Assembly (NCBI GenBank): GCA_037176845.1 | Contig: JAYKXP010000022.1 | Span: forward strand, 186,001 to 250,000 | Reading direction: 5' to 3' | Source: Paramarasmius palmivorus | Lineage: Eukaryota; Basidiomycota; Agaricomycetes; Agaricales; Marasmiaceae | DNA: 64,000 bases | Shown: positions 18,712 through 58,737 of the stretch, one piece after another | How the letters are laid out: every line of letters begins with the position of its first letter | How positions within the stretch are numbered: position 1 is the first letter of the stretch | The notes under the pieces: generated by a model | Databases searched by the model: none | Seen by the model: the letters and a program-made list of their open reading frames with translations, nothing else | Told to the model about the DNA's origin: nothing | Program-made: the position numbers and the translations under genes

Positions 18712-18890
18712 CAGAGACCGCGCAGCGGTCTCTGGCGCGAAGCGCCTCGAGTTGGAGGCAGGACGGTTAGGGGTTGGGGTTAGGAATCTTGCACCACCAG
18801 GGGTGGGTTCGGGGCTTGGATCTGGAGGCAAGTCGGTTAGGTTAGGTTAGGTTAGGTTAGGGGTCAGGCGTTAGGGGTTAGGCAATAAGG
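18712..18890. repeat. Short hairpins and (GGTTA)n telomere-like repeat
   Basis: Directly after the Pol III T-run come two tight palindromes: AGAGACCGC-gca-GCGGTCTCT at about 18713-18733 and GGCGC-gaa-GCGCC at about 18735-18747. Then come G-rich direct repeats: tggaggca twice, and ggttaggggttggggttagg. An uninterrupted pentamer run of GGTTA covers about 18835-18861, followed by ggggtcaggcgttaggggttaggc. It resembles interstitial telomere-type DNA, but the unit is 5 nt, not TTAGGG. Confidence 0.65.
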
Positions 18891-30913: not shown

Positions 30914-32087
30914 TCACACTCGATTGATGAATCTATCTCTAGCCTTTTGGTTGCGTCTAAGATCCTCATCTTTCAACTTTGCAGTAAGCGCCGCGTAAAT
31001 TTCATGCCCGTATTTTTCTCCATCCTAGCGGTGCTCTCAATATCGCGTTTGTGTGGAGGTAGACGAGTCACTCACTGTGATTAACGACTTTAATCTCGAC
31101 ATGTCCAATTCCCCGGGACCAAGCATCCGCATCGCCTGGAGCTGCCCACCTGCGGAAGTGAAAGAAAAGACCAAAAGGAGGCGTATCGATGATGATAGCT
31201 CTTCGTGGGGTGTCGCGTCGATGAAATGAGTCGGAGGGATCTATAGTTGTCATGATTCCTACTATTCATTGCCGGAGTCAAAAAAATAACGCACGAGGTT
31301 CAGCGATACACAAACTGGCCACCGTTCTCGGCCATCCAGGACTTCGCCTTCGTCCCAGTAATCTGGAAGCTCAAAATCTATAGCGGAGCTAATCTTTCTA
31401 GTATCAAATCCACTGGAAGTATCTTGATCCACGTCCATATCCCCCGAAGTTGTGTCTTTCGCTCCCAGGCTGCCCTTCTTCGCCTTGTACTCGATACTTT
31501 TCGTCCTGGGAACCTTAGTGTCCCAGAGAGCGGCACGCGCGGCCATGAATAGCGCGTCATAAATGTTCCCGGAATCAGATAGCACGACTAGATCCAAATT
31601 GAGGAGCCATGACTTTTTTCGAGGTAATATCCCCAGGTTCGCGGGATGTAGGGACGGGTGGGAGAGTGTTTGGTGTAGAACTTCGGTGAAATCGTGTTGT
31701 AGATCATCAAGAGCCCCAGACGAATGGTTTGGATATGCAGAAGGAGAACTATCTTCGTGTCATTTAGCTGGAAAAATTCTAGAAAAAAAGTACGAAAGAT
31801 AGAAACACGAACCAAGACACGTTGCACAACATACGACCACCATCAACACCGTCCTCTCCGACGTTCTCGACCTCCAATTTGACAGCTGCAAGTACCTCAG
31901 TTCCCCCACTCCCATCATGCGGGTTTCGGCCAATGTTGAGACGAGCGCTACCATTCGCCAAAGGTGCTACACCAGTTTCGAGAGCGATGGGACGAAAATC
32001 ATGAAGACCACGACCATCTCCACGGCGTGAGGGAGCTCCGAGGATTCCGGCCTGTATGAAGGATTTTTCTGCCTTTGAGATGGACAT
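30914..32087 (-). CDS. RRP42: Exosome complex core subunit RRP42 (RNase PH-like ring)
   Basis: A catalytically inactive RNase PH-fold subunit of the six-membered exosome ring for 3'-to-5' RNA processing and decay. The start at 32087 gives MSISKAEKSFIQAGI followed by RGDGRGLHDFRPI, PLANGSARLNIG and the block GGTEVLAAVKLEVENVGEDG. Next comes LGILPRKKSWLLNLDLVVLSDSGNIYDALFMAARAALWDT, a typical RRP42 block. After a Ser/Asp-rich insert, SGFDTRKISSAIDFELPDYWDEG leads to CVSLNL, spliced to HFIDATPHEEL and MRMLGPGELDMSRLKSLIT, then a last exon DGEKYGHEIYAALTAKL ending at TGA 30914-30916. The gene is intact. A decayed fragment of it sits at 51880-52115. Confidence 0.85.
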
Positions 32088-32147: not shown

Positions 32148-34080
32148 ATGGTCTATCCTGGTGAATATCTTTCGTACTTTGGATTGTTCGAGCTCTGGAC
32201 ATCTTCACTACAGCCAGCAAACATGCTCTCAAGGTTTTTCAACATCTTGTAAAGCTTTTGCCAGCCAATGAACGGAGCAAGGTGACGATCTCTCGGATAG
32301 ATTGAGTGAAAGGCTGACGAGTTTAGTAGCCTCAAGTACTTCTTCTAGCAGGGGAGGTAACGCCTTTTAGGAATGATACCGACCGTGAAATTGCTTTTCG
32401 CCAGGAATCCAACTTCTACTACATAACTGGATGCACTGTGCCATCGTCGTACGTTCTGGCAGTATACCAAGAAGGCACATCGTTTTCACAAACTCCTTCA
32501 TTGGAGTTATTCATACCAAAGATTGAGCTTGCAGATCTGATGTGGTCTGTTCCCCCGCCAACTCTCGCAGCAGCAGCGGAAACTCACGATGTTACCCACA
32601 TCGACTACCCCTCTGCTCTTCCTGAAGTGATCAAGACCACCATCAAAGCTTTCCCGGATGCATTATTCCATACCTTACCCCGAGGTTCACCTCTTTTCCC
32701 AGTAATCCCGCCTGAGTTCACTCAACTGGTTCTCTCTTCTGATAACAAGGATCTGGCCATCAGCGATCTGTATCTGCTCCCGGCGCTACACCGAGCACGA
32801 TTGATTAAAGACGACTCAGAAATCGCTTTGATCAGACATGCTAACGAGATAAGCTCGCGAGCCCACGAAACCGTGATGAGAGTACTCGGAAAGGCTGTCA
32901 AAGGGGTAATCGAACGAGGAAAGGGCGCCGGTGTCGAAAGGCCGCTTCTCCCTGGCGAATGGCTGATTGAAAAAGAAGCTGAGGCGGAAGCCATCTTCGT
33001 TGCGTCGTGCAGGCGGGAAGGGTAGGCTCCATGTACTTTCTTATTGACCTGCCCTAATCTCATGGTTATCTAGGTCCATCCATCAAGCATACCTACCTAT
33101 CGTCGCGGGTGCCACTCGTGCAGCCACCTTGCATTACTGCTGCAATGGAGGAAACGACCGCGAATTTGCATGGGGGCCCATCGATCCACACGACCATAAG
33201 AACAGGAACGAGTTTGCACATGGTGGGCCCAGGAAACTCCTTCCCCAGGTTCTCCTCATCGATGCCGGCTGCGAATGGAACTGCTACGCATCCGATATCA
33301 CGAGAACGATGCCTGTCGGCAACAACGGCAAATTTACTCCAGAGGCCCGTGCTATCTATGAGCTCGTCTTGGAGATGCAGAAAGTATGGTCAATTCTTTT
33401 TCAATGTCGCACACGTGACTGAGGGATACCTTTCACAGTTATCGATGGACATCATTCGACCAGGACTTCATTGGGATGCAGTCCAGCTCTTGTGCCACCG
33501 AACACTTGTGAAGGGATTCCAACGCCTAGGAATCTTCAAGTCCCCTTCAAAGGCTGCTACTTCATCTACGTCACCCGCAGGATCCGAGGGCTGGAATCCT
33601 GAACACGACGAAGAAGCAATCCTTGCATCAGGTATCAGCTCAGCATTCTTCCCGCACGGACTCGGACATAGTCTCGGAATGGATGTGCACGATGTACCCA
33701 GCGCTAGTAAGCCAGTGGTCAACAACACGATAGGCAAAGGGGTGCAGCTGGGTCATGAGAGCTTCTACACTCATCTCAGACTTCGTTTGCCTTTGGAGAA
33801 GGGCATGGTAGTGGTGAGTTCTTTTGCTGTTACTATTTTGTCTGTGTACTCATGTTGGATGTGCCAGACTGTGGAACCTGGCATTTACTTCAACCCTCAT
33901 CTGCTGGCGCCGATTCGGAACTCCAAGCATATTAACCAAGACGTTTTGGATCAATATGAAAGTGTTGGTGGAGTAAGGATCGAGGACGTGGTCTTGATTA
34001 CCGATGATGGACTCGAAAATCTGACCACGGTCAAGAGTGATGTGGAATGGATTGAAGGCGTATGTTCAGGGGATCTATAA
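32148..34080 (+). CDS. Xaa-Pro aminopeptidase / prolidase-type peptidase M24B
   Basis: A metallopeptidase releasing N-terminal residues before proline. A 13-nt first exon (ATGGTCTATCCTG, donor gtgaat) joins after about 50 nt to CCAGCAAACATGC, giving [17 protein letters not shown]. The AMP_N domain follows ([26 protein letters not shown]). The M24 catalytic half carries the metal ligands: LLIDAGCEW (Asp), [11 protein letters not shown] (Asp), [16 protein letters not shown] (His), TVEPGIYF (Glu) and [11 protein letters not shown] (Glu). Introns interrupt it near 33025-33075, 33380-33440 and 33815-33867. The stop is at 34078-34080. All ligands are present, so an active enzyme is likely. A remnant of its 3' end lies inverted at 51650-51845. 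Confidence 0.85.
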
Positions 34081-34228
34081 TCAAAGGTGCCGGTTGCTGT
34101 CTGCACTCAATAAGCTGTACGTGCGAGTAAAAATACAAATGTAATAACACTGACCCAACCCAAGGCTACAATACACGATAGGAAATAAGCCAAAAACATA
34201 AAACTATGCCGGCCGCTCATGCGCCGAG

Positions 34229-37200
34229 TCAACTCCTAAGCTGCATAGGTACTTTGGTAAGCCAGGTGAAGGATCGTCACCGGAGCACACTTACCGTAAA
34301 ATGGTTATCTATTAACACCTTCTCGTATTTCATGGCCAGTTCCCTCAGCCTATCCCGAAATAGATGCACATCGTATCCTAGAACTGTCGTTCCCGTCTCC
34401 ACGAATAGCTGGCCTGCTATCGCACGAAATCTTTCCCGTTCTGACTGCGAGTTCTGATATTGTCGGATGACTTCGTGAACAAGGCTGAGGTTATACGGCA
34501 TGCTTCCCCCGACCCAAAACAGACATTCGGCAATGACCAAGATGTCTAGGAGTACGACCTTCAACACGTTATGGCTTCTCTGTGGACTGCATACCCACCG
34601 ATGAAGAACGTGAGTAGCTGGAGCTTCGTCGTAACTGATGGATTGACCTGTAGGATCATTAACACAATCCTACAGCCCAAACGAGTACACTTACCCAAGT
34701 TGTTGCAGCGTGAACAATTACACGGACTTGCTCTTGACTTTGCATATTCTGGTAGGTGTTATATCAGCTATGGATTATGACATAGGCGTGAGAACTCACA
34801 GTCTAGATGGAGAACAACGTCGAGCTGTGAGCGAGAGCACCTTGAGACGTGAGTAAGGCAACCTTACATCCTATAGATGCATCAGATCGATGAGTGGCGT
34901 GCTTATATCGAATAAAAATGACTTACCGGCTATATATTATTCGATACAGTCGTCTAAACAGCCTGCATTCTTCAAAAGATTGGTTTACTCACGGACTACC
35001 ATCGACTTTTTCAGTAAAAGAGACGCATTGCCGTGAGATCACGTACCCACTGGAACAAGGAATCAATCGTGAGTGGCACAAAAGCAAAAGATAGCGGAAA
35101 ACTCACGTCCTAAAATGTCAATCGTCAAATGTTAGCGAAGGTCAGAGAAAGAGAAAGTGCAAGTACATCCTGGCACATTTGAGTCAACATTCCCCTTTTC
35201 ATGAGCAGGTTCGAGTACATACATCCTGTTACAAAACCGAATCCCGAAAGGCAACAACGTTGAGCGTCATTCGTGCGACGGAAACCAAGTCATATGCCCA
35301 CCCACTAGAAGCGGAGATCAGCATTGATACTCAAAGATATTCTCAAAGAATCTCACTGTCTGGTCAAAAGCCGCATTTATCACGTTAGTCAAGACCAATA
35401 AATTTTGTTCAGCACGGCTTGACTGACCCACTATTTCAGACGTTCAGTATGATAAGATAACTAACATGAACTGGACTCACATGCTGCATAGTTGAACGAA
35501 TGGTAGCCATCAGCAAAGAGGCGTTACGTTGTTGAGAGAAACATACCCACTAGTGTCATCAAAATTAGTACCACTCTCATACTAAATCAAGCTGAGGAAC
35601 TTACTTCCTGATCAATCCCCAATGAATAGCTGATTTAGTCGAGTAAGCAAATCACCAGTGGTTGTTACACACCCACTGTAATGGTGTGAATCAACGAATT
35701 TCAGGCAAACACGAGTCGGCTCACATCCTGTAAAGGTGGTTAATGACGCTGACATTGCAGACTTGTAGAAGCAACAAACGTTCTGTTTCAAATAGTCTCA
35801 TCAGTCCGCATTATATAAGGATATCAAATTCACCTCCTAACGAGCAAATCGCATTAGTGTGAATAGGCCTCGAAAAGCGGATCATTGCTTACAATCTGTT
35901 TGACCGTAAGTTTGCCTCAGTGGCTTCAGAAATTGATCGACTCACTTTCTAAGCGAACGATTCAGAACAGCACCTTGAAAGACCGTAAAATCACTTACAA
36001 GAAACTTGTGTTTTCACGAATCATCATTGGTCAATGTTTGCTACGGGCGCAAACAAAATCCAGCACGTACTTCCTGAATCAAGGGTTCCAATAAGAATGC
36101 AGAGCTGAGATGAGATGAGAGTGTGTCACGTACTTTCTGTGATTCGGATGAAAACAGTCGGTGCTGCTCAATTCACCGTACGCTTCAACTTGAATAGGCT
36201 TACCCAGTGGGGAAACAATGAAAGCAGTAGGGTCGTCCATGCATATAACTTGCTGTTTTCTCGCCGCACTTGCTCATGTTTCTCCGCTGCTAGGGAGATC
36301 GCACTAATTTTCATTGGACCAATGGGAACGGCGAGAAACTAACGCGACTTACTAGACTAATGCCACACCCATAGAGACTTCAACGCTGGTTCGTTGGACC
36401 ATGGCAAACAAACGCGACACGACTTCTGTTTCAATCGTTCGATGAGTGGCTAATGTTAACGGCTCGCATGTTGTCTCTGGTTTGTCCATCTCTGGCGGCA
36501 TTGAGTGAGCAACAATTGACAGGGATGGTACGATTTACGAAGCTTACTCTGCAGATACACGCAGGCTGCGGGTGGGTATTTCATCCGCTGTCTCCGTTCC
36601 GTCAGTAGGATTTCCCATTCGTACTTGGCCCTTTGCTCTGCCTGCCTCCTTGCTTCTCTGAGCGACAAACCCTCGTCACGGAGTTTGCTGTATGCCTTGT
36701 TTATTCGGGATTCAAACTTGGTGAATATTGCAATGACTGGAACTGAGAACTAGGTTATCGCTACATCCCGTACAATGTTATTACAACTCACCACCGTCCG
36801 TTCCATTCTCAAAAAAGGCCATTTCCGCATCACAGAGAGGTCGATCAGTGTCAGTGGAAAGACAGTACCTGTCACCGAATCAGCTTATGCTCGCAGAGGG
36901 ACATTTACAAAGATGTCACTCACCATATAACGTGTAGTTGCTTGTCGAAGGATTCTTGGCTTCTGTCCTTCATAAATCTCTTGAGGTCCTCTGCTTCATG
37001 TATAGAGCCAGCTTCCATTCCGCGAGAGTCATGGAAGACAAAGCCTGGGTTACTGTTGAGTGAGGGTCGCGTGAGCTTCCTACATTCGGGGTCTTGAGAT
37101 GTGCGTGCCTTGGATATGTTATCTCCCAGTTGATACGACTTCTTCCGCGCTGATTGAAGGGTCAGTGAAAGATCAAAGCGTGTCAGCGCGTATCGTTCAC

Positions 37201-37519
37201 CTCGACGGATGGCTCCAATATCGTTCCAGGGTCTACCTAAAAGAGTCATAAGCTGCCATTACACAGCGAGCATGAATAGCAAAACGCGCACCTGCTTGCC
37301 GCTGTCGTCGTGTACAATAAACTTCCCGTCTGAACTCTGAGTCATTTTCTGCAAAAGCGTGGTCTTCCCCGCATTCCTTCTACCCATGACAAGGACCCGA
37401 AAGCGTGGAACCTTTTCCCGCACGACTTCCTGAGGGGTCCTGGCAGTGGAGGCTGGAGCGAGTCTTGTATGGGGGGATTTCAATGTACCGTCCGATATTC
37501 GACGAAATGGAATAGGCAT
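34229..37519 (-). CDS. G-domain (P-loop GTPase-like) protein with a micro-exon train, copy 1
   Basis: The start at 37519 (MPIPFRRISDG); splicing from an upstream exon ending ISGVGQ near 37665 into IPQTLTD is possible and would lengthen it. P-loop VLVMGRRNAGKTTLLQK is G1, FVFHDSRGMEAG is G3 and VPVIAIFTKFES is the G4 region, with TKFE in place of the usual TKxD. The blocks HVIWYCLSADTDRP and RRQAEQRAKYEWEILL match the Agaricomycete G-domain family. After FPHW the gene runs through 23 micro-exons (34749-36203) before NMQSQEQVRVIVHAATTW. It then continues with the LVIAECLFWVGGSMPY exon and a last 3-codon exon (LRS) ending at 34229-34231. The product is about 475 aa. The role is unknown; related proteins are assumed to bind GTP. 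Confidence 0.7.
34749..36203 (-). other. Micro-exon train, copy 1: 23 exons of 3 or 6 nt
   Basis: On the minus strand the pattern ag|NNN|gt recurs 22 times, plus ag|TTTCTT|gt once. Every unit sits between introns of about 50-75 nt, in the same order and with the same codons as copy 2. Examples on the plus strand are the reverse complements of ag-TGG-gtacgt (near 35045), ag-GAC-gtgagt (near 35108), ag-CAT-gtgagt (near 35482) and ag-AAA-gtacgt (near 36130). The CCG unit near 34927 has a normal GT donor (gtaagt), where copy 2 has GC. Confidence 0.75.
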
Positions 37520-43597: not shown

Positions 43598-43721
43598 GTG
43601 GATTAGTCAGTAATCGATGATTCATGTCGCCTGGCACCAGAAATTTCAAACATGTCGACAACACTTACCCGGTGATAAAAAGCTCCATCTTGTGCAAAAT
43701 GACTTCAACTTCTTCCCGACC

Positions 43722-45666
43722 ATGTCGAATGCATCATCTACGACATATCTTCCACAACCCCAAGATATCGAGAAGGAGTCAAAGCAGATTCAGGATGATT
43801 CCCTTTCGCAAGTGCAAGATCCATATGAAGTCGACCTCAACGCCGACGAGCATCCTCAAAGCATGAGCTCTGCTAGAAAGTGGTTAATTGTGTTGGTCAT
43901 AAGTGGTGCATCGCTATGTGTTACATGCTCGTCCTCTGCAGTACGTATGCCCGTTTTCATTCACTACATGTAATGCTCACTGTTTTATCATCCAGGCTGC
44001 CTTCGCAGAAGGAGGAATGGCGGCAGAGTTCCACGTCTCTCGACTCGTCACGGTCCTTACCATCAGTCTCTTTGTTGCGGGTTTAGGTATAGGTCCCTTA
44101 CTCGTCGGCCCATTGTCAGAGGTATACGGCAGGAACATCATCTACCAAGTTTCTTTCACCATGCTGTTCCTATTGTCTTGGCCAATAGTCTTTGCACCAA
44201 ACATCGGTACGTATCAGGTGCCCTATTCTTCGCTACTAGCCCTGACTTCAGTCTCCCAGCCGTCATGCTTGTATTCCGATTTCTCACTGGATTTTGCGGA
44301 TCTACGTTCCTCAGTGTTGCTGGGGGAACCGTCAGCGACCTCTTTTCCAATGAAACAGTGGCAAAGTAAGTCCGGTCGGAGCTAATTAATTAGCCGGTAT
44401 CTAATTTTCTACAGTCCAATGGCCGTTTATACGCTCTCTCCGTTCATCGGACCTGTCCTTGGTCCCCTATACAGCGGGTAAGATATTATTGAGCTCCGTC
44501 GATGATCATTATGCTCATGGTTCTCATCAACAGTTTCGTCAATCAAGTTCGTCCCCATACTGCGGCTCTTCCATCTCCGATTTAACCGCCTCTTTGCAGA
44601 ATGCGAGCTGGCGTTGGACCTTCCGTGTCCTATTGATCTGGACGTTCATCCAGACTGTTGCCATCTACTTGGTATGCGCTCCATATTTCACATCACTCAT
44701 AGCCCGCTCATTCATGGTTTAGTTCGTTCCCGAGACTTTCGTCCCAGTCCTGCGCAAGAGAAAGGCCGCCAAGTAGGTGTAGCATCATCAACCATATTCC
44801 TGCCTGCTAATCTTTGTTCAAGACTCCGGAAAGCCACAGGAGATGCAAATTATTGGGCACCCCTGGATCGACAAGACAAGGACCTCGCCACATCAATTCT
44901 CATCAGTTGCTACAAGCCTTTCGAGCTGGTCATTTACGACCGCATGGTACTGTTGCTCAACACATGGTGAGTTATTATTTATGGGTCAAACCGTTGCAAC
45001 TCTGGTTAAGTCTCCGATTACAACAGGACTGCACTTATTCTCGGTATCCTATACCTTGCATTCCAAGCTTTCCCAATAATCTTCCAACAAAAACATGGCT
45101 TCGACATGCAACAAACCGGAATGACGTTCCTTGGAATTGGTTTCGGGATGATTCTCGCAGTCTCGACGCAAGGATACTTCAACCGCTACGCCCGTGAGGC
45201 AGGAACTCCCGAATCACACCTTCACAAAGGTGAAATCGGTGGTATACTCGTCCCTGTAGGGCTCTACATCATCGCCTTTACTACTTATGCTTCGGTTCAT
45301 TGGATTGCCCCAATAATTGGCTCCATTCCCTTTGGCGCGGGCGTGTATCTGGTCTTCACGTCGGTATTCACATACCTTGTCACAGCGTATCGACCTATAG
45401 CAGCGAGTACAATGGCATCCAATTCTGCGATGCGATCTGGATTTGCTGCTGCCTTTCCGCTGTTTGCCGGGTTTATGTATGAAGCGCTTGGGACAGTGGG
45501 TGCCACTGCGTTATTAGCGGGGGTTATGACTGTCATGGCCCCATTACCGTAAGTTTATCTCGATCAGAGCGGTTGCAAGATGATACTGACACGGACCATC
45601 AGGTTCATCTTCCGAAGAGTCGGTGCTCGTTTACGACAAAATTCACGTTTCGCTGCTCGGTCATGA
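43722..45666 (+). CDS. MFS transporter, DHA1 (drug/polyamine:H+ antiporter) type, copy A
   Basis: Start MSNASSTTYLPQPQD at 43722, with the conserved N-terminal segment PYEVDLNADEHPQSMSSARKW just before the first helix (LIVLVISGASLCVTCSSSA). Twelve membrane segments are expected. The motif A-like loop GPLLVGPLSEVYGRNIIYQ lies between helices 2 and 3, then GFCGSTFLSVAGGTVSDLFS, WRWTFRVLLIWTFIQT and FVPETFVPVLRKRKAA before the central loop, and IAFTTYASVHWIAPIIGSIP in the C-half. The stop is at 45664-45666. About nine exons all join in frame, including one of 13 nt (44534-44546). It is intact. Substrates of such basidiomycete proteins are mostly unknown; polyamine or drug export is a family guess. 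Confidence 0.82.
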
Positions 45667-46467: not shown

Positions 46468-49400
46468 GTGAATAGCGCACGCCAGATTATTATTAATGGC
46501 GGATATTTCACCCGAAATTCCATCGCAAGGACTTCCAACGAAGAAGAGTCAGTAGGAGCCCGCGAACCTTCACCACCGTCATCACCGCCATTCAAAACAT
46601 ACGTCAAACACCTAATCCCCCTGGGCTTCGGGTACCCGCTATGGAGCCCTAGCCTAACTCACGATCTTCCACAATCCTACCAGAGAACGGGGGTCTCGAT
46701 AGGCGATGTTGTGACTTTCAACGGTCAGGGTGGAATTGAGTATTTCTTCAACGTCCTGCATGGCCCCAATGATGATCGAAACCTGGGCAGAGTCCCCGAG
46801 AATTTTGAACCACTCGAGTTAACACTCGATATTGCAAGGGATTTACATCAGCATGCTCCAAGGTCGATTATCGCGAGCCCTTCTAGCAAGATAACACTGG
46901 AACCATTGAACCGCTGTAGATCATACCCACATAATGGTGCGTTTGTACGTAGTGTCAACCTAGCTTTGGACTGAGCTTTGGGCCGGAGGTGTTCCTATGG
47001 AGTTTGGATGTGGACTTTCCCTGTTTTCTGGTTCCACCGAAGGTGCAATTCTGATTCTTCCCGAGGGAGGTGCGCGAGAGGATCATCACAATGAAGATGC
47101 CTTCGAACAGTACGCGAGAAGGAACGCGTTGCGCTGGTTTCGGTATATAAATGGGGTCCGCGGGCGGCGTCTGAGCGGAAATGCTCTCATTTTGGTCACT
47201 GGCGTAGACAAAACCAATACCTGGGGCGTAGCTTCCTTCAGTGATGCAGAGCTAGGATCCGTGATGATGGAACTAGTGCCGAACATGTTAGGATCTCACA
47301 CCAAGTACCACTTTCAGCGGTTTGCCTATGCAACGACTCGTACCGGTCCGATAACAACTGGCCAACCTGAAGGGGCAGAGAACAACGTGAATCAGTGCAT
47401 CTTTTTGCGGGGCATCCGGATTGTTGTTGGCCAGCGTCTATTGCCTCGAACGATATCTGTGAAAACTGAGGATGTTCAGCAGTTGCCCCTCGAAGGCAGC
47501 AAATTTGTTCCCTTTGGCTCCCAGCACCAGCACAGTCAGCCAGGCCCATCCTCTTTGTCCCCTTTGTCGGCACCATCGTCCTTGTTCTCTAATTACACAT
47601 CTCCGTCTGGCTTGACCGTTACCACGGAACGGATTCCGCCGCAGGTCTCAGTAAGTTCATGGTTTTTTTCGCGTTTACCCCTCGATTGATGCTGCATCCT
47701 AGGCGTACGATCCTTGCACAACTCTCGGGAATCGTTTGCTGGAACTGGTATCTTCTCGTTGCATGGTTATATTCTTGTTGCTGACGAAACCTGAACTTAG
47801 GTACCTGACGCAGATGTAGCAACGATACGAGACAAACAGCTACTTGAGTTACTGAGAACGGTGAGTCCTTATGTTTTGGAAGAAGAAACTCATTCATCTA
47901 TGACTTAGAGCGACGGGTGCTTGCCTAGTGACGAAGAACTTTTGCATAGAATGGAGCAATATTTCCAAGCTGTGGGAACCAACGGTATATAACAGTCATA
48001 CCAGCCCTGCAATGAGTATTTACTTTGGAATCCTGTAGGATTTGCTTGGTTATCACCACAGGGCTCCGCGAGATCACAATCCCAAACGTCAGCTCACGGA
48101 TATGCCGAATCGGACTCCGACACTTCGCTCAAAACATCAACCTCGCCAGACCGCCAGCTTCCGAAGGAGCCGGGTGTTGTTTCCGAGCTCGAGTATCATA
48201 CTGCGGACTCCTCAGGGCCTCAGATGCATCGTACCGACACGTTTCATCAAATATCGGACGGCAATCAGAAATCGAGAAACGCCCCAGTAACTGCTGTTAG
48301 GACCCCTCCGATGACGAGACCATCTCGTCGAATATCGGACGGCACATTCAAGGCATCGCATTCAAGAACCGCTGCAACTTCCGTTGCTAGAACCCCTCAG
48401 GAAGTCGTACGAGAAAAGGTCCCACGGTTTCGGGTCCTTGTCATGGGTAGAAGGAATGCGGGGAAGACTACGCTTTTGCAGAAGATGACTCAGAGTTCAG
48501 ACGGGACGTTTATTATACATGACGACAGCGGCAAGCAGGTGCGCGCTCTGCTATTCATGCTCGCTGTGTAATGACAACTTATGCTTCCTTTAGGTAGATG
48601 CTGGAACGATACTGGAGCTATCCGTTGGGGTGAACGATATGCGCTGAGACAGTTCGACCTTACACTGACCTTTCACGCAGCGCGGGAAAAGTCGTATCAA
48701 CTGGGAGATAACCTTCAAAAGGCATGCATATTTCGAGACATTGGATGTCAAAGCTCACACAAGCTCACTCGGCAGTAACTTGGGTTTTGTTTTCCATGAC
48801 TCTCGCGGAATGGAAGCCGGTTCTGTATATGAAGTGGAGGACCTCAAGAAATTTCTGAAAGAGAGAAGCCAAGAATCCTTGGACAAGCAAATCCATGTTA
48901 TATGGTGAGTAATCCCCATGCAGGGCGCTCCGCGAGCATGGGTTAATTCCATGACAGGTACTGTCTTTCCGCTGATACCGATCGACCTCTCTGTGATGCG
49001 GAAATGGCCTTTTTTGAGAATGGAACGGAGGGTGGTGAGTTGTGATAACAGTATTTAGGATGTAGCAATAACCTTTTTCTCAGTGCCAGTCATTGCAATA
49101 TTCACCAAGTTCGAATCCCGAATAAACAAGGCATTCAGCAAACTCTGCGACGAGGGTATGTCGCTCAAAGACGCACGAAGACAGGCAGAGCAAAGAGCCA
49201 AGCACGACTGGGAAATCCTACTGACGGAACGGAAACAACGGATGAAATACCCACCCGCCGCCTGCGTGTATCTGCAGAGTAAGCCTCGTAAATTGAACTG
49301 TCCCAGTCAATTGGTTCTCACCCAATGCCACCAGAGATGGACAAACCAGAGACAACGTGCGAGCCGTTAACATTAGCCACTCATCGAACGATTGAAACAG

Positions 49401-51606
49401 AAGTCGTGTCGCGTTTGTTTGCGATGGTCCAACGAACCAGCGTTGAAGTCTCTATGGGTGTGGCATTAGTCTAGTAAGTCGCGTCATTTTCTCCCCGTTC
49501 CCATTGGTCTAATGAAAAATTAGTGCGATCTCCCTAGCAGCGGAGAAACATGAGCAAGTGCGGCGAGAAAACAACAAGTTATATGCATGGACGACCCTAC
49601 TGCTTTCATTGTTTCCCCACTGGGTAAGTCTATTCAAGTTGAAGCGTACGGTGAATTGAGCAGCACCGACTGTTTTCATCCGAATCACAGAAAGTACGTG
49701 ACACACTCTCATCTCATCTCAGCTCTGCATTCTTGTTAAATTCCTTGATTCAGGAAGTACGTGCTGCCATTTATTTATGCTCGTACCAAACATTCATCGA
49801 TGATTATTCGTGAAAACACAAGTTTCTTGTAAGTGATTTTACGGTCTCTCAAGGTGCTGTTCTGAATCGTTCGCTTAGAAAGTGAGTCGATCAATTTCTG
49901 AAGCCACTGAGGCAAACTTACGGTCACACAGATTGTGAGCAATGATCCGCTTTTCGAGGCCTATTCATACTAATGCGATTTGCTCGTTAGGAGGTGAATT
50001 TGATATCCTCGTATAATGCGGACTGACCAACACCTGAGACTGTTTGAAACAGAACGTTTGTTGCTTCTACATGTCTGCAATGTCAGCGTCATTAACCACC
50101 TTTACAGGATGTGAGCCGACTTCTGTTTGCCTGGAATTTGTTGATTCACGCCTCTACAGTGGGTGTGTAACAACCACTGGTGATTTGCCTACTCGACTAA
50201 ATCAGCTATTTATTGGGAATTGATCAGGAAGTAAGTTTCTCACCCAGTGATTTAGTATGGTACTCATTTTGATGACACTATGTAGTGGGTATGTTTCTCT
50301 CAACAACGTAACGCCTCTCTGCTGATGGCTACCATCCATTCAACTACGCAGCATGTGAGTCCAGTTCATGTTAGATATTTCATCATATTGAATGTCTGAA
50401 ATAGTGGGTCAGTCAAGCCGCGCTGAACAAAATTTATTGGTCTGACTAACGAGATAAATGCGGCTGTTGACCAGACAGTGAGAGATTCTTTGAGAATTTC
50501 TTTGAGTATCAATGCTGATCCCCGCGTCTAGTGGGTGGGCATATTACTTGGTTTCCGTCACACGAATGACGCTCAACGTTGTTGCGTTTCGGGATCCGGT
50601 TTGGTAACAGGATGTATGTACTCGATCCCGCTCATGAAAAGGGGAATGTTGACTCAAATTTGCCAGGATGTACTCGCGCTTTCTCTTTCTCTGACCTTTG
50701 CTAAAACATTTGACGATTGTCATCATAGGACGTGAGTTTTCCGCTGTCTTTTGCTTTTGTGCGACTCACGATTAATTCCTTGTTCCAGTGGGTACGTGAT
50801 CTCACCGCAATGCGTCTCTTTTACTGAAGCCGATGGTAGTCCGTGAGTAAAGCAATCTTTTGAAGAATTCAAGCTGTTTAGACGAATGTATCGAATAATA
50901 TATAGCCGGCAAGTCATTGTTATTCGATAAGCACGCCACTCATCGATCTGATGCATCTATAGGATGTAAGGTTGCCTCACTCACGTCTCAAGGGTGCTCT
51001 CATTCACAGCTTGACGTTGTTCTCCATCTAGACTGTGAGTTCTCAAGCCTATGTCATAATCCACAGCTGATATAGCACCCACCAGAATATGCAAAGTCAA
51101 GAGCAAGTCCGTGTAATTGTTCACGCTGCAACAACTTGGGTAAGTGTACTTGTTTGGGCTGTAGGATTGTGCTCATGATTCTATAGGACAATCCATCGAC
51201 TACGACGAAGCTCCAGCTACTCACGTTCTTCATCGGTGGGTATGCAGTCCACAGAGAAGCCATAAAGTATTAAAGGTTGTATTCCCAGACGTTCTGGTCA
51301 TTGCCGAATGTTTGTTTTGGGTCGGGGGAAGCATGCCGTATAACCTCGGCCTTGTTCAAGAAGTCATCCGACAATATCAGAACTCGCAGTCGGAGCGGGA
51401 AAGATTTCGTGCGATAGCAGGTCAGCTATTCGTGGAGACGGGAACGACAGTTCTAGGATACGATGTGCATCTATTTCGGGATAGGCTGAGGGAACTGGCC
51501 ATGAAATACGAGAAGGTGTTAATAGATAACCATTTTACGGTAAGTGTGCTCCGGTGACGATCCTTCACTTGGCTTACCGAAGTACCTATGCAGCTTAGGA
51601 GTTGAT
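46468..51606 (+). CDS. Predicted fusion: uncharacterised Agaricomycete N-terminal module joined to a G-domain protein with a micro-exon train (copy 2)
   Basis: No good ATG was found, so the 5' end is uncertain. The first module runs from INGGYFTRNS (46498) through GFGYPLWSPSL, GAILILPEGGARED, GDVVTFNGQGG, ALILVTGVDKTNTWGVASF and NQCIFLRGIRIVVGQ to MEQYFQAVGTN. It is an Agaricomycete family of unknown function. A 54-nt intron (47985-48038) then leads in frame, without a stop, through GFAWLSPQGSARSQ into the G-domain region: P-loop VLVMGRRNAGKTTLLQ, VDAGTILELSVG, FVFHDSRGMEAG and FTKFES. Next come the micro-exons (49624-51085), NMQSQEQVRVIVHAATTW, and LVIAECLFWVGG with a final LRS exon stopping at 51604-51606. 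The total is about 985 aa. The exon joint near 46950-46985 is unresolved. Two separate genes would be the alternative. Confidence 0.55.
49624..51085 (+). other. Micro-exon train, copy 2: 22 single-codon exons and one 6-nt exon
   Basis: Exon start positions and bases: 49691 AAA, 49754 GAA, 49823 TTTCTT, 49879 AAA, 49932 ATT, 49991 GAG, 50053 AAC, 50108 GAT, 50160 TGG, 50228 GAA, 50286 TGG, 50352 CAT, 50405 TGG, 50475 ACA, 50532 TGG, 50611 GAT, 50667 GAT, 50729 GAC, 50789 TGG, 50840 TCC, 50906 CCG, 50963 GAT, 51032 ACT. Each is preceded by ag and followed by gt, or gc after 50906. The 24 introns run from 48 to 76 nt. All boundaries are phase 0, so 24 residues are added, five of them Trp. Confidence 0.75.
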
Positions 51607-51649
51607 TCGGCACATGAGCAGCCGGCATAGGCAAAACAGCTTTGATTAT

Positions 51650-51845
51650 TTCAGTTGGTCTACCGTGTATTGTAGATTGGGACGGTGTTATTACATTGCA
51701 TTTTTACTCGCACGTCTATCGAGTACAGACAGCAATCAGTACTTTTGATTACAGATCCTGGACACACGCCTCCAATCCATTCTACATTACTCTTGATTGT
51801 GGTCAGATTTTCAACTCCGTCGTCAGTGATCAAGACCACCCAAGA
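51650..51845 (-). pseudogene. Remnant of the Xaa-Pro aminopeptidase 3' end
   Basis: On the minus strand [22 protein letters not shown] matches the last coding exon of the gene at 32148-34080 ([22 protein letters not shown]) over about 22 residues. The upstream catalytic part is missing: the sequence passes within about 40 bp into RRP42-derived DNA. No metal-binding site remains. It was carried with the inverted duplication. Confidence 0.8.
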
Positions 51846-51879
51846 CTTCGGCAACTTCGACAAACGGTAGGCTCGTCTT

Positions 51880-52115
51880 AACATCAGCCGAAACCCACAT
51901 AACGGGAGCGGGAGGAACTGCAGTACTTGCAGCTGTCAAATTGAAGGTCGAGAATGTCGGAGAGGATGGTTTTAGCCGGGGACAAAGAGTGTCGAATACA
52001 ATGCGAAGAAGGGTAGCATGGGACTCGCCAAACAGCGGATTCGATACCAGAAAGATTAGCTCTGCTATAGATTTTGAGTTTCCGGATTATCGTGACGAAG
52101 GCGAAGTCCTGTCGA
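51880..52115 (+). pseudogene. Decayed RRP42 fragment
   Basis: Sequence equivalent to GTAVLAAVKLKVENVGEDG (RRP42 GTEVLAAVKLEVENVGEDG) is followed, after deletions, by SGFDTRKISSAIDFEFPDYRDEG, almost identical to the intact gene at 30914-32087. The intron, the middle block and both ends are missing. It lies in the orientation expected for the mirror-image copy and confirms that the duplicated segment originally extended through the aminopeptidase gene into RRP42. Confidence 0.8.
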
Positions 52116-53022
52116 CCTCCGACTTGTCGAAGGATTGCCATTCGGGGAAAAACGGCGAGAAAGGAGTTCAAACTAAATCTTGCTGTGATAGAGCTGTGAC
52201 TGTGACAAGTAAGCCATTTGTCCGCGGAGCTCCTTCTGCTGTACACCCATATCGGCATTTTTGTTTCCTGAGGCCCTAGGCTGGCTGGAGTATATTGCAG
52301 TACGGTAATATGGAAGGAGACCAGATCTTCAGAGCCCTAGCTTCAAAGTTGTACCCAAGTCGTGCGTTTCTAAAGTTCTGTGATCTCTCCATTACTCATG
52401 GGCCATGGCAGAGGTTGGCAGCGGCATCTGGCTTCAGACAGTATATACTCAAGCTTGACTGGACACAAACTTGAGCAAGGCCCTTGGCTCTCGATATCGT
52501 CGCTCATTTCCGATTCCGTTCTGGAATCGCACTATGAAACACGGAAAATCAACGAGGTCGCCGTCCACACGGCCTGCAGTGCTTAGCGCTTAGCCTTCAG
52601 GAATCAGAACCAGACACCGAGACCTTACTAGTCCCACCGACAGACTGTAAGTGTAAGAGCGTACAACCTTATCCCTTCGTACTGCTCACATCGCAAATAG
52701 GTATTTGGACTTCGCCCTCAATCCAGTTGGCTGTGATATCCGCGGCAACAAGCATAGGCTCAAAGCCATTTTTGTTTGGTCTAGAATGAGGAGGGGGAAA
52801 GGTATGAAGCCGAAGATCAATCAAGAATAGAGTATGCCTGGGCTGCGAACGCGTCTGGAATCGAGTCTGCTCGACATAGGGCACGACCAGCACATGGAGG
52901 TCTGGATTAGTCAGCAACAGTATCGCCTATCGTTGAAATTCCAAAAATTCGCGACGATAAAAGGCAATGTCGTGCTCCCCAGGCGGACTCAATTACTCGT
53001 CTATTTCAACCTCTACCCATCC
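52116..53022. other. Spacer between the duplication remnant and MFS copy B
   Basis: It contains the second copy of a short dispersed segment (about 52250-52320, like 45965-46030). No gene is supported; the open frames at 52380-52917 are short and without features. Confidence 0.4.
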
Positions 53023-55147
53023 ATGTCGACCGCTTCATCTGCGACATGTCTTCCTCAACTTCTGGACCCCGAGAAACAGTCAAAGCAGACCCATAATTCC
53101 CTTACGCGGGCACAAGATCTGTATGAGGTCGACCTCACCCCCGAAGAGCACCCTGAGAGCATGAGCTCTGCTAGGAAATGGTTAATAGTGTTGGTGATAA
53201 GTGGCGCATCACTATGTGTTACATGCTTGTCCTCCGCGGTAAGCATTCTCTTTGTGTTATATCTTCCAGTCAACGATTTTAATGCTCGGCTAGGCCGCTT
53301 TTGCAGAAGGAGGAATGGCTGCAGACACCCCCGAAGAGCACCCTGAGAGCATGAGCTCTGCTAGGAAATGGTTAATAGTGTTGGTGATAAGTGGCGCATC
53401 ACTATGTGTTACATGCTTGTCCTCCGCGGTAAGCATTCTCTTTGTGTTATATCTTCCAGTCAACGATTTTAATGCTCGGCTAGGCCGCTTTTGCAGAAGG
53501 AGGAATGGCTGCAGAGTTTCATGTCTCCCATCTCGTCACAGTCCTTGCTGTTAGTCTCTTTGTCGCGGGCTTTGGTGTAGGACCTTTACTGGTTGGCCCG
53601 TTGTCAGAGGTGTATGGCAGGAACATCATCTACCAAGTCTCCTTCACCTGGTTATTCATATTTTCATGGCCAATAGTCTTTGCGCCGAACATTGGTACGT
53701 GTTCCCTGCCTCAGGCTCGCTTCTATTCTAAGTATTGACTTGGGCACCGTAGCCGTCATGCTCGTATTCCGATTCCTTACTGGATTTTGCGGATCCACCT
53801 TCCTCAGTGTCGCCGGTGGAACTGTCAGTGACATGTTTTCCGACGAAGCGGTGGCAAAGTAAGTCCGAGTCAGTTGATCAGTTGGCATGCTCACTCTATC
53901 CTGTCGTGCAGTCCAATGGCCATTTATACACTATCTGCATTTATCGGTCCTATTATCGGTCCCCTGTACAGTGGGTAAGGTACAACCAGCTTCCTCGATG
54001 ACCACTTTGCTCATGATTCTCACCTGCAGCTTCGTCAATGAGGTGAATTCCTTTGACATGGCTCCTCTGTCTTTGTTCTAATTACCTTCTAGAACATAAA
54101 CTGGCGCTGGACATTCCGTATCATATTGATCTGGACATTCGTACAGACTGTTGCCATCTACCTAGTATGTTCGCCCCGTCTCTACTTCACACAATCTCTC
54201 AATTATGTTGCAGTTCGTTCCGGAGACTTACATCCCGGTGTTACGCAAAAGAAAAGCCGCCGCGTGTGTACAACATTTGTCGGACTATGCACACTTCCAC
54301 TAATCTATTGTGAAAAGACTACGCAAAAGTACAGGAGACCCAAAATACTGGGCTCCCCTGGATCGACAAAACAAGGACCTCGCGAAGTTGATTATCATTA
54401 GTTGCTACAAGCCTTTCGAGTTGATCATCCACGATCACATGGTAATGTTACTTGATACATGGTATTTTGTTTCTTGACCACAGCATCGCAGTCATGGCTC
54501 ACTCTCGAACAGGACTGCAGTCATCCTGGGTATCCTATACCTAACCTTTGAAGCCTTTCCGGTCATCTTTCAACAACAACACGGCTTCACTATGCAACAA
54601 ACTGGAATGTCGTTCCTTGGGATTGGTCTCGGCATGATTCTTGCTGTTCCAACGCAAGGGTACTTCAATCACTACGTCCACGAAGCGGGATCGCCAGAAT
54701 CACAACTTCATAAGGGTGAAATCGGTGGTATACTGGTACCAATAGGACTCTACGTTATCGCATTCACCAGCTACGGATCGGTTCATTGGATTGCCCCCAT
54801 CATTGGCTCCATTCCCTTCGGCGCTGGCGTATACTTGGTCTTCACGTCTGTATTCACATACCTCGTTACAGCGTATAGACCTGTAGCAGCGAGCGCATTG
54901 GCATCCAACTCTGCGATGCGGTTTGCGTCTGCTGCTGCTTTTCCGCTCTTTGCTGGGTATATGTATGAAGCACTGGGGACAGTAGGTGCTACGGCATTAC
55001 TAGCAGGTGTTATGACTGTCATGGCCCCATTACCGTGAGTGTCTTGTTGAAGCTACATAGGTTGATACTGATGAGAGCACCAGGTTTATTTTTAGGAGAA
55101 TTGGTGCTCGTTTACGAAAAAGTTCACGTTTCGCTGCTCAGCCGTGA
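53023..55147 (+). CDS. MFS transporter, DHA1 type, copy B, with an internal duplication
   Basis: Start MSTASSATCLPQLLD at 53023, then YEVDLTPEEHPESMSSARKW and the first helix. A 190-bp perfect tandem duplication (53136-53325 and 53326-53515) contains the end of exon 1, a 55-nt intron and the start of exon 2. Because 190 minus 55 is 135, it adds exactly 45 codons (DTPEEHPESMSSARKW plus helix 1 again) and a second copy of the intron in frame. The rest follows copy A: GPLLVGPLSEVYGRNIIYQ, WRWTFRIILIWTF, FVPETYIPVLRKRKAA, WAPLDRQNKDLAK, a 13-nt exon at 54030-54042 and a stop at 55145-55147. Splicing from the first donor (53239) to the second acceptor (before 53484) would give a normal-length protein. 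Confidence 0.75.
53136..53515 (+). repeat. Perfect 190-bp tandem duplication
   Basis: The unit 53136-53325 is repeated base for base at 53326-53515. The left junction shows CTCACCC before unit 1 and GACACCC before unit 2, with CACCC shared. Each unit holds one complete intron (53239-53293 in unit 1). Confidence 0.95.
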
Positions 55148-56521: not shown

Positions 56522-58491
56522 ATGTCGACCACTTCAAGAGAATCATCCGACACATCCGACTCATTCCCGCCTCATCCTCAAGATAAAGATGTCGAAAAGG
56601 GCAAAAAGGTCCAAACCATCGTCACAGCGGTTACTGAGGTTCAGGAAGAAGACCCGTACGAAGTCGACCTCACGGCCGATGAACATCCCCAAAGTATGAG
56701 CACGCTTAGGAAGTGGATGATTGTCCTTGTGATAAGTCTCGCCTCCTTGTGTGTTACGGCTTCATCTTCTGCGGTACGTCTTCCACTTAGCGACCTATTT
56801 CCCATGATGTGGCTTAACGATTCTCTTCAGGCTTCAAATACAGAAAGAGGAATGGCTGCCGAATTCCACGTATCACAGGAAGTCACTATTCTTTCTGTCA
56901 GTCTCTTCGTCGCCGGATTGGGTGTAGGGCCTCTGTTGGTTGGGCCTCTGTCGGAGCTGTACGGCAGGAACATCATCTACCAAGTGTCCTTCGTCATGAT
57001 GTTTATCTTTACATGGCCAATAGTGTTTGCGCCCAATATCGGTCCGTGTTAAATTTAAGATTAATATCCATCCGCTAATCTAAGCCTATAGCCGTTGTTG
57101 TCGTTTTCCGATTTTTGTGTGGATTTTGTGGATCAACGTTCCTAAGCGTCGCCGGTGGAAGTGTTAGCGATTTGTTCTCCAACGAGACAGTGGCCAAGTA
57201 TGTTCATTCAAACCTTTGATTTTCGGACTTGTCTCACCATCTTTCCAGCCCAATGGCGATGTACACGCTGTCACCCTTTATCGGTCCCATAATTGGTCCC
57301 CTTTACAGTGGGTATGTGTTCCAAGTTCATAATGTATTTTTCATACTTTACTGACATTCTTCCTTACCAGTTTCGTCAACCAAGTATGTCCTCGTTAGTG
57401 TCATATCAACATGGTCTAATCTCGCACTATAGAATACTACCTGGCGTTGGACATTCCGTGTATTGCTCATCTGGACGTTTCTCCAAACAATTGCCCTATG
57501 CACAGTAAGTTATTCCTATCCTCACATCGCCTTTTCTAATCCGTTATCTAGCTTGTTCCTGAGACATATGTACCAGTCCTGCGTCAGAGGAAGGCCGCAA
57601 TGTACGTTCTCAAGGCTAACTTCCCATCTTTCTCATGGCTGACATACATTCAAGGCTTCGTAAGAGAACCGGAGACGACAAATATTGGGCCCCTTTGGAT
57701 AAGCAAGAGAACAATTTGACCAAAGCCATCATGGTCAGTTGCTACAAGCCTTTCGAGCTGATTGTCTATGATCGGATGATACTCTTGCTCAACACATGGT
57801 ACGTTGCTTCCCCCCACTCTGCGAGGCTCCCATCTAATTGTCTACTACCCACAGGACCTCAGTCATCCTCGGCATCCTTTACCTCGCATTCCAAGCATTC
57901 CCAATCATCTTTGCTCAAAACCACGGTCTCACTGAGGAAGAAGTCGGCATGACCTTTCTTGGCATTGGTGTCGGGATGGTTTTCGCCATGCCAACTCAAC
58001 GCTACTTCAATGCCTTTGTCCGTGCAGCCGGAACACCAGAATCACACCTTCACAAGGGTGAAGTTGGAGGGATACTCGTCCCTATGGGACTATATATCAT
58101 TGCATTCACCACGTACCCGTCCATTCCTTGGATCGCGCCAATATTGGGTTCTATACCGTTTGGTGCTGGGATCTACCTTGTCTTCACTTCCGTTTTCACA
58201 TATTTCGTCACGGCATATCGTCCTGTTGCAGCTAGCACAATGGCGTCCAATTCTGCAATGAGATGCGGATTCGCCGCTGCGTTCCCTCTGTTTGCTGGTT
58301 TCATGTACAACGCGCTCGGGACGGTGGGAGCGACAGCTCTTTTGGCAGGCGTGATGACAGTCATGGCACCCTTACCGTGAGTGTTTCGCAGCTACAGATG
58401 TTTGAACCATCTAATCCATATCTACAGGTTTGTCTTCCGCAGAATTGGTGCACGCCTACGGAAAAACTCTCGCTTTGCTGCTCAGTCGTGA
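56522..58491 (+). CDS. MFS transporter, DHA1 type, copy C
   Basis: Start MSTTSRESSDTSDSF at 56522, with YEVDLTADEHPQSMSTLRKW before helix 1. It keeps GPLLVGPLSELYGRNIIYQ, GFCGSTFLSVAGGSVSDLFS, PMAMYTLSPFIGPIIGPLYSG, WRWTFRVLLIWTF, LVPETYVPVLRQRKAA, WAPLDKQENNLTKAI and the C-half block GILVPMGLYIIAFTTYPSIP. The stop is at 58489-58491. It shares the 13-nt exon (57371-57383). It is the most diverged of the three copies: its N-terminal leader and intron sequences differ more. No break was seen. Confidence 0.82.
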
Positions 58492-58737
58492 ATTTCAATC
58501 TTTGTTGGACTGTAATCGACTTAAAATAAAGACCAGGACCGGTACGGGACTGGGGTCAAATGTCGACAGTAATCAAATCCCGCTCCTCAAGCGGCGTGCA
58601 AACCCACTCTTCTCCGAATCATAAACGAATCCATAAACATACATAAATGATACGTAGTACACATCTCGTGTTTAATTACAACAATCCCGATACCCATGAA
58701 TACATATCTTCGTCTTTCAACAACGCGACGAATGATC

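Follow-up and report, generated by a model that had tools for sequence, protein, structure and literature searches.

A putative train of 23 micro-exons, 22 of them a single codon long, in a GTPase-like gene and its inverted paralogue

RESULTS

Organization of the locus

The window, i.e. the whole 64,000-nt stretch of DNA that was analysed (C22:186001-250000 of a 68.3-Mb genome in 393 contigs), contains two copies, in inverted orientation, of a gene coding for a P-loop/G-domain protein. Copy A is found at 48000-51557 on the + strand. Its first-exon model begins at 48000 (the true start of the gene may differ), with the P-loop end at 48422-48538 (+), where the GTPase domain begins at RFRVLVMGRRNAGKTT. 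Seven ordinary exons follow (exons 2 to 8, 48594-49623, +), ending with ...LLLSLFPHW and separated by six introns of 49-56 nt in phases 0, 2, 2, 1, 1 and 2. A GC-AG intron is present in both copies, at 48722-48775 in copy A (+, 54 nt) and at 37108-37053 in copy B (-, 56 nt); its removal from copy A yields ITFKSNLGFVFHDSRG, and when it is left in, copies A and B are out of frame with each other. Downstream of the train of micro-exons described below, the gene resumes with ordinary exons at 51086-51139, 51187-51235 and 51289 to a stop at about 51557 (+), which encode NMQSQEQV...NHFTVSVLR and of which the 3' end is uncertain. The P-loop and G-domain exons match the MMR_HSR1 family of Pfam (PF01926) near its curated cut-off of 21.9 bits, with a score of 19.7 bits (E 0.00093), slightly under it, for copy A and of 22.4 bits, slightly over it, for copy B. 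This domain is upstream of the train and tells nothing of the micro-exons.

Three related genes, transporter-like by eye, lie between or beside the G-domain copies (43704-45658, 53005-55139 and 56649-58492), and their matching pieces are 72-86% identical in DNA. At the start of a transporter-like gene (by eye), a perfect tandem duplication of 190 bp (53136-53515, 2.0 copies, 100% identical) is either a recent event or an assembly artefact. The pentamer GGTTA occurs in about five copies in a row at 18835-18861, distant from any contig end. No Rfam family attained its gathering score within the 64,000-nt window. The genome gave 45 matches to the hydrophobin family, versus none in 14 prokaryote controls, and its 34 modelled ordinary introns are of 47-59 nt; the source is hence likely to be a mushroom-forming fungus.

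Structure of the micro-exon train

Between the exon ending with FPHW (at 49623) and the exon beginning with NMQSQ (at 51086), 24 intron-like units of 48-76 nt alternate with 23 putative micro-exons over 49624-51085 (+). An earlier note on this DNA had given these coordinates, the number of exons, the lengths of the introns and their phase, and all were as described on recheck. Twenty-two micro-exons are of 3 nt and one is of 6 nt. All 24 train introns are in phase 0, versus 3 of the nine other introns of the copy A gene model (phases 0, 0, 2, 2, 1, 1, 2, 0 and 1; Fisher P 7.6e-5).

On the + strand, micro-exons 1 to 8 are AAA (K, 49691-49693), GAA (E, 49754-49756), TTTCTT (FL, the sole 6-nt one, 49823-49828), AAA (K, 49879-49881), ATT (I, 49932-49934), GAG (E, 49991-49993), AAC (N, 50053-50055) and GAT (D, 50108-50110). 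They are followed by micro-exons 9 to 16, in which every other codon up to the fifteenth is TGG: TGG (W, 50160-50162), GAA (E, 50228-50230), TGG (W, 50286-50288), CAT (H, 50352-50354), TGG (W, 50405-50407), ACA (T, 50475-50477), TGG (W, 50532-50534) and GAT (D, 50611-50613). The series is completed by micro-exons 17 to 23, which are GAT (D, 50667-50669), GAC (D, 50729-50731), TGG (W, 50789-50791), TCC (S, 50840-50842), CCG (P, 50906-50908), GAT (D, 50963-50965) and ACT (T, 51032-51034). Together they encode 24 residues, KEFLKIENDWEWHWTWDDDWSPDT; IENDWEWHWTWDDDWSPDTNMQSQEQVR is an example of a peptide that crosses this segment. Tryptophan comes at alternate places four times running in KEFLKIENDWEWHWTWDDDWSPDT (residues 10, 12, 14 and 16), an arrangement matched by 0.8% of peptide shuffles. 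Spotted after the fact, it would suit a strand whose aromatic residues share one face.

Splice sites and introns of the train

The train introns have the attributes of spliceosomal introns, i.e. GT/GC...AG ends and near-ordinary site strength and length. Their donors averaged 4.8 nats in copy A and 4.9 in copy B, versus 5.1 for the 34 ordinary introns that were used to build the splice models, and their acceptors 3.2 and 3.3 nats versus 3.6. They are slightly longer, with means of 57.9 nt (A) and 57.6 nt (B) versus a range of 47-59 nt for the same 34 introns. The repeated ag|NNN|gt pattern proposed in the earlier note is present, save that the donor of intron 22 (50909) is GC and not GT in copy A; it is GT in copy B. 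The strict branch-point motif CTRAH was found in 13 of the 24 introns of copy A and 15 of the 24 of copy B, and a loose version in 21 of 24 in each, these counts being for the train introns, with no ordinary-intron baseline. The last exon base is T or C in 11 of the 23 micro-exons versus 4 of 34 ordinary exons (P 0.005). The triplets are therefore not adapted to the donor consensus, from which their last base departs; this would be expected if that base were set by the codon and not by the splice signal.

The introns resemble one another little. Tandem Repeats Finder listed no tandem array in the train. The mean similarity of intron pairs was 0.232 versus 0.196 (sd 0.010) after shuffling, a small excess; the best pair (0.667) was inside the range of the shuffled maxima (mean 0.589, top 0.785), and neighbouring introns were no more alike than others (0.212). 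A 1801-base query matched only two places in the genome. An introner origin, which calls for introns that are alike or dispersed, was rejected on these pair scores and the two-place match; an old introner origin, with the similarity since lost, is possible. A tandem origin of the introns was likewise rejected, given the lack of a repeat array and of any greater likeness between neighbours. A 25-nt match extending over acceptor, exon and donor (49739-49763 against 50774-50798, 80%) is too slight to carry an argument. RNA structure was also discarded as an explanation, the folding energy of the train being ordinary (z 0.70 versus 12 shuffles).

Statistical significance of the pattern

An acceptor and a donor exactly 3 nt apart (YAG-NNN-GTRNG) were found 17 times in the copy A train and 18 times in that of copy B, versus 0.26-0.29 expected (Poisson P about 3e-24 for a mean of 0.3). 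At every other YAG-to-GTRNG spacing from 0 to 30 nt there were at most 2 occurrences in A and at most 3 in B, for a background of about 0.25 per spacing. Runs of AG-NNN-GT at intervals of 45-80 nt reached a length of 17 in copy A and 21 in copy B. Elsewhere in the genome the longest run was 4, in 39 pieces totalling 240,144 bases that were read on both strands (L037 and L051, which overlap other pieces, had been removed, as had the loci within copies A and B); among 300 dinucleotide shuffles of copy A it was 5.

A chain search was carried out with donor and acceptor models derived from the 34 introns outside the train, exon length being left free from 1 to 30 nt and the frame being ignored. 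In copy A it called 25 introns, among them 22 of the 24 proposed ones, with a score of 23.7 nats; 20 of the 24 exons called were of 3 nt, one was of 6 nt and three were of 17-25 nt. In copy B, 26 introns were called and 19 of the 24 proposed ones recovered (32.4 nats). The maximal scores were 11.7 nats in 196,417 background bases and 10.0 nats in 200 shuffles of copy A; this background, and that used with the shuffles, included two pairs of overlapping pieces. For introns 10 and 23 the search favoured alternative acceptors further downstream; in either copy, their use brings a stop codon into the frame.

The outcome was mixed for two parsers that take the reading frame into account. The first, given a 5% tail of long introns and a density of one intron per 200 nt, preferred a path of two introns in copy A, one of them proposed, and of seven in copy B, six of them proposed; one of its 34 training introns had been wrongly cut. 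With the second, in which introns were restricted to 40-85 nt, the 24 proposed ones had a mean posterior of 0.94, 0.81 and 0.61 in copy A, and 0.93, 0.82 and 0.70 in copy B, at intron rates of 1/5, 1/50 and 1/200. Raising the limit to 120 nt lowered these values to 0.65, 0.49 and 0.27 (A) and to 0.72, 0.54 and 0.37 (B). At low intron density, or when longer introns are permitted, the parser retains some introns as exon or skips exons. It follows that splice-site strength alone is no proof of the train. Chance is nevertheless ruled out as the source of the pattern by the uniform 3-nt spacing, and it is this exact spacing, together with the paralogue, rather than the single-site signals, that constitutes the strongest evidence.

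Comparison with the inverted paralogue

The two copies belong to an inverted duplicate (33988-37510, -, versus 48320-51839) that is 89.8% identical in DNA. The earlier note had named a second locus at 34690-36210; it holds the same train, 13 kb away, at 34749-36203 (-), and its 23 micro-exons, from micro-exon 1 at 36136-36134 to micro-exon 23 at 34802-34800, are all intact, with codons identical to those of copy A. Since all 23 units are found in both copies, the train would be older than the gene duplication, unless there was conversion between the copies. Beyond the main duplicate, short inverted similarities of 84-89% link 51851-52111 and 31337-31967, the B side being about 2 kb further out; the duplication may once have been larger and have been broken later.

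Copies A and B, which make one evolutionary comparison and not two, differ at 0 of 72 positions in the micro-exons, 0 of 72 in the acceptors (-3 to -1) and 4 of 142 in the donors (+1 to +6), versus 84 of 1157 in the intron bodies. Gap events numbered 0 in the micro-exons, 0 in the acceptors, 1 in the donors and 9 in the intron bodies. Relative to the intron bodies, Fisher P values were 0.005 for the micro-exons and 2.5e-5 for exons plus sites. Had the micro-exons changed at the intron-body rate, 0 changes out of 72 would have a probability of 0.004, a departure from chance that is no more than moderate. The gene-wide coding rate predicts 4.5 changes over the 72 nt (P of none 0.011), and the rate of the downstream part of the gene 2.2 (P of none 0.11). 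A coding segment in this part of the gene could be conserved to the same degree as the train; taken alone, the 0/72 value does not separate coding from splicing constraint, as constraint on the splice sites might give the same result.

Over 457 aligned codons, train included, dN was 0.044 and dS 0.181 (dN/dS about 0.24), with no frame break. Judged by this ratio, the trains and their flanking exons form one open 457-codon frame that is under purifying selection. The exons just upstream of the train (49335-49623 versus 36491-36204) are near-identical, silent sites included (dS 0 to 0.03), and the train intron bodies are 7% different; local gene conversion is possible.

Search for relatives

Copies A and B were the only members of the gene family found in the genome among the best-scoring candidates. 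The PF01926 search of the genome gave 35 matches, two of which were copies A and B; 30 were made into loci, and a P-loop pattern applied to these 30 retained 16 stretches, one being copy A and 15 being other GTPases or ATPases by eye. Some of the searches, in the genome and outside, used a 440-aa gene model in which one intron was read as exon. No intronless or diverged copy was detected in the same genome with an 88-aa query around the train. This query hit four places beyond the exons of the known copies (E 0.008, 0.048, 1.8 and 3.1). The two best, C4:381216 (E 0.008) and C25:428505 (E 0.048), were dismissed as chance matches, the 4 kb around each giving no above-chance G-domain match (tblastn and translations of the strand bearing the hit). 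A short Trp-rich run between stops was found by eye in the C4 stretch and is absent from the tblastn list. Elsewhere, no relative was confirmed among 16 pattern-matched stretches of genome_contigs and 3 of viral_contigs, a search whose reach was close relatives and which covered no fungal genomes. Solved structures, searched by sequence, yielded no strong match (best E 0.087).

DISCUSSION

Interpretation of the train

The train probably consists of 23 coding micro-exons in a GTPase-domain gene, with introns removed singly by way of intron definition. The earlier note had read it as real micro-exons handled in this way, and the conserved codons and acceptor triplets, the near-ordinary strength of the sites and the open frame lend support to that reading. 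Each 48-76 nt intron would be recognised as a unit across the intron, this being the range of sizes where the machinery pairs the two intron ends. Since the 3 nt between introns are too few for two spliceosomes, the introns would be removed one by one, and the sum of the steps would insert the Trp/Asp-rich segment between FPHW and NMQSQEQV. From the sequence we infer both this one-at-a-time removal and the inclusion of all 23 exons in the main mRNA; any role of the 24-residue segment is likewise putative. At an accuracy of 98% per intron, simple arithmetic gives 62% of complete transcripts. Because each unit is a multiple of three in phase 0, skipping of a 3-nt unit costs one residue and causes no frameshift. 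This may be why such units alone persist, and for the same reason variable inclusion is compatible with the structure.

The train could indeed be real but with micro-exons skipped in many combinations, which would generate in-frame linkers of 0-24 residues. Any subset of the micro-exons would be in frame (2^23 combinations), some of them were skipped by the parser that accepts introns of up to 120 nt, and three donors of copy A have low scores (1.0, 1.7 and -0.2 nats for introns 8, 15 and 18). However, a skip requires an intron of about 100-135 nt, made up of two adjacent introns and the 3 nt between them and double the size of the 34 other introns, and the weakness of the donors of introns 8 and 15 is the same in copies A and B; we consider this possibility unlikely. 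Recursive splicing, in which the AG-NNN-GT sites would serve as stepping stones for the removal of a 1.46-kb intron and the triplets would matter little or be lost in the end, appears improbable. A permissive parser does favour a single very long intron accompanied by a few short ones, but an intron with exactly the bounds of the train had a low posterior (0.036 in A, 0.006 in B). All the sites do lie in one phase-0 interval, the single-step removal of which keeps the frame open, but acceptor and donor adjoin directly (YAG-GTRNG) in 0 cases in A and 0 in B, versus 17-18 cases with a spacing of 3; the triplets end in a base that does not follow the donor consensus, and in an ordinary step a triplet between AG and GT gets spliced in, not lost.

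The division into 24 introns would be excessive if some of the intron-like stretches were exonic and the exons fewer and longer. The earlier note had stated that no intervening frame stays open. This holds for 21 of the 24 introns of each copy, which break the frame or bring in a stop if kept, but not for introns 2, 12 and 19, whose retention leaves the frame open in both copies. Parses at low intron density use exons of 24-200 nt, and, both strands counted, 49500-51200 is overlapped by 13 stop-to-stop frames of 50-130 codons. Intron 19, on the other hand, has strong ends (GTGAGT and TTCCAG), and the length of six introns (7, 14, 15, 18, 22 and 23) differs between the copies by a non-multiple of three (that of intron 20 differs by three), so that the intron stretches cannot all form one conserved reading frame. 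Fewer and longer exons are, in our opinion, very improbable. Hardly credible is the view that the train is an accidental pattern or belongs to a dead gene: the GC donor of copy A and the failure to find relatives in the searched collections (genome_contigs and viral_contigs) would agree with it, but it is opposed by the spacing, run and chain-search statistics, by the unbroken frame of 457 codons with its dN/dS of about 0.24, and by the 23 micro-exons intact in both copies.

If the train is made of coding micro-exons, as we favour, its equal phases and near-fixed exon length of one codon argue against random gain of introns into an old 72-nt exon, which would scatter both phases and exon lengths. 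As a conjecture, it may have originated by the stepwise addition of codon-plus-intron units or through codon-sized exons born within one phase-0 intron; as the introns are hardly alike now, the addition of such units would be old. A bolder proposal, which we regard as doubtful, is that the segment is assembled almost residue by residue, with each step skippable in frame so that any of 2^23 linkers could in principle be made, and that it has grown by codon-plus-intron units.

Exons of 3 nt are at the edge of known splicing capacity; should RNA confirm the train, the known limit of gene fragmentation would move. The literature search was limited, but we know of no train of this length in print, and the reported cases of 3-nt exons are, to our knowledge, single ones. 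If the train is real, we know of no longer run of single-codon exons, and it would be a case from nature showing that intron definition sets next to no lower bound on workable exon size. Present in two copies, a train of 22 3-nt exons would be a test object for asking whether introns 3 nt apart always leave singly, in what order and with what accuracy. It could also show whether codon-sized exons are tolerated, are used for diversity or have grown by a duplication mechanism. Gene finders that impose a minimum exon length would mis-annotate such genes.

Comparison with known systems

The micro-exon genes (MEGs) of schistosomes contain long series of small exons whose lengths are multiples of three, so that skipping is frame-neutral and variant transcripts are produced. 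These exons, mostly of 6-36 nt, encode secreted proteins and hold most of the coding sequence. The train is similarly tandem and symmetric (23 of 23 exons are multiples of three and 24 of 24 introns are in phase 0). It differs in that 22 of its 23 exons are of exactly 3 nt and the other is of 6 nt, in that it is located in a GTPase-domain gene with introns of 48-76 nt, and in that it holds only 24 of the 457 compared codons. The neural micro-exons of vertebrates resemble those of the train by being codon-sized and often multiples of three; they are isolated among long introns and rely on dedicated splicing factors. At the ratchet points of recursive splicing the acceptor and the donor are directly adjoining (AG|GT), and at these points, as in stwintrons, the sites adjoin or nest and add no codon. 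The likeness to the train would lie in the stepwise removal of adjacent intron units, and the difference lies in the 3 nt present between the sites.

The APC11 gene of Arabidopsis has a constitutive exon of 1 nt (Guo and Liu 2015, PMC4674806). Its authors judged exon definition very unlikely, and intron definition with successive removal of the introns more plausible; the smallest exons known at the time are given as 3 nt for alternative and 6 nt for constitutive ones (PMC4674806). A potato micro-exon, cited in the same paper, has its second intron removed ahead of the first (PMC4674806), from which it follows that the order of removal need not be 5' to 3'. APC11 has one micro-exon, submitted to an in vivo GFP-fusion test (PMC4674806), whereas the train has 23 putative ones in a row, in a probable fungus; what the two have in common is an exon far under the usual size.
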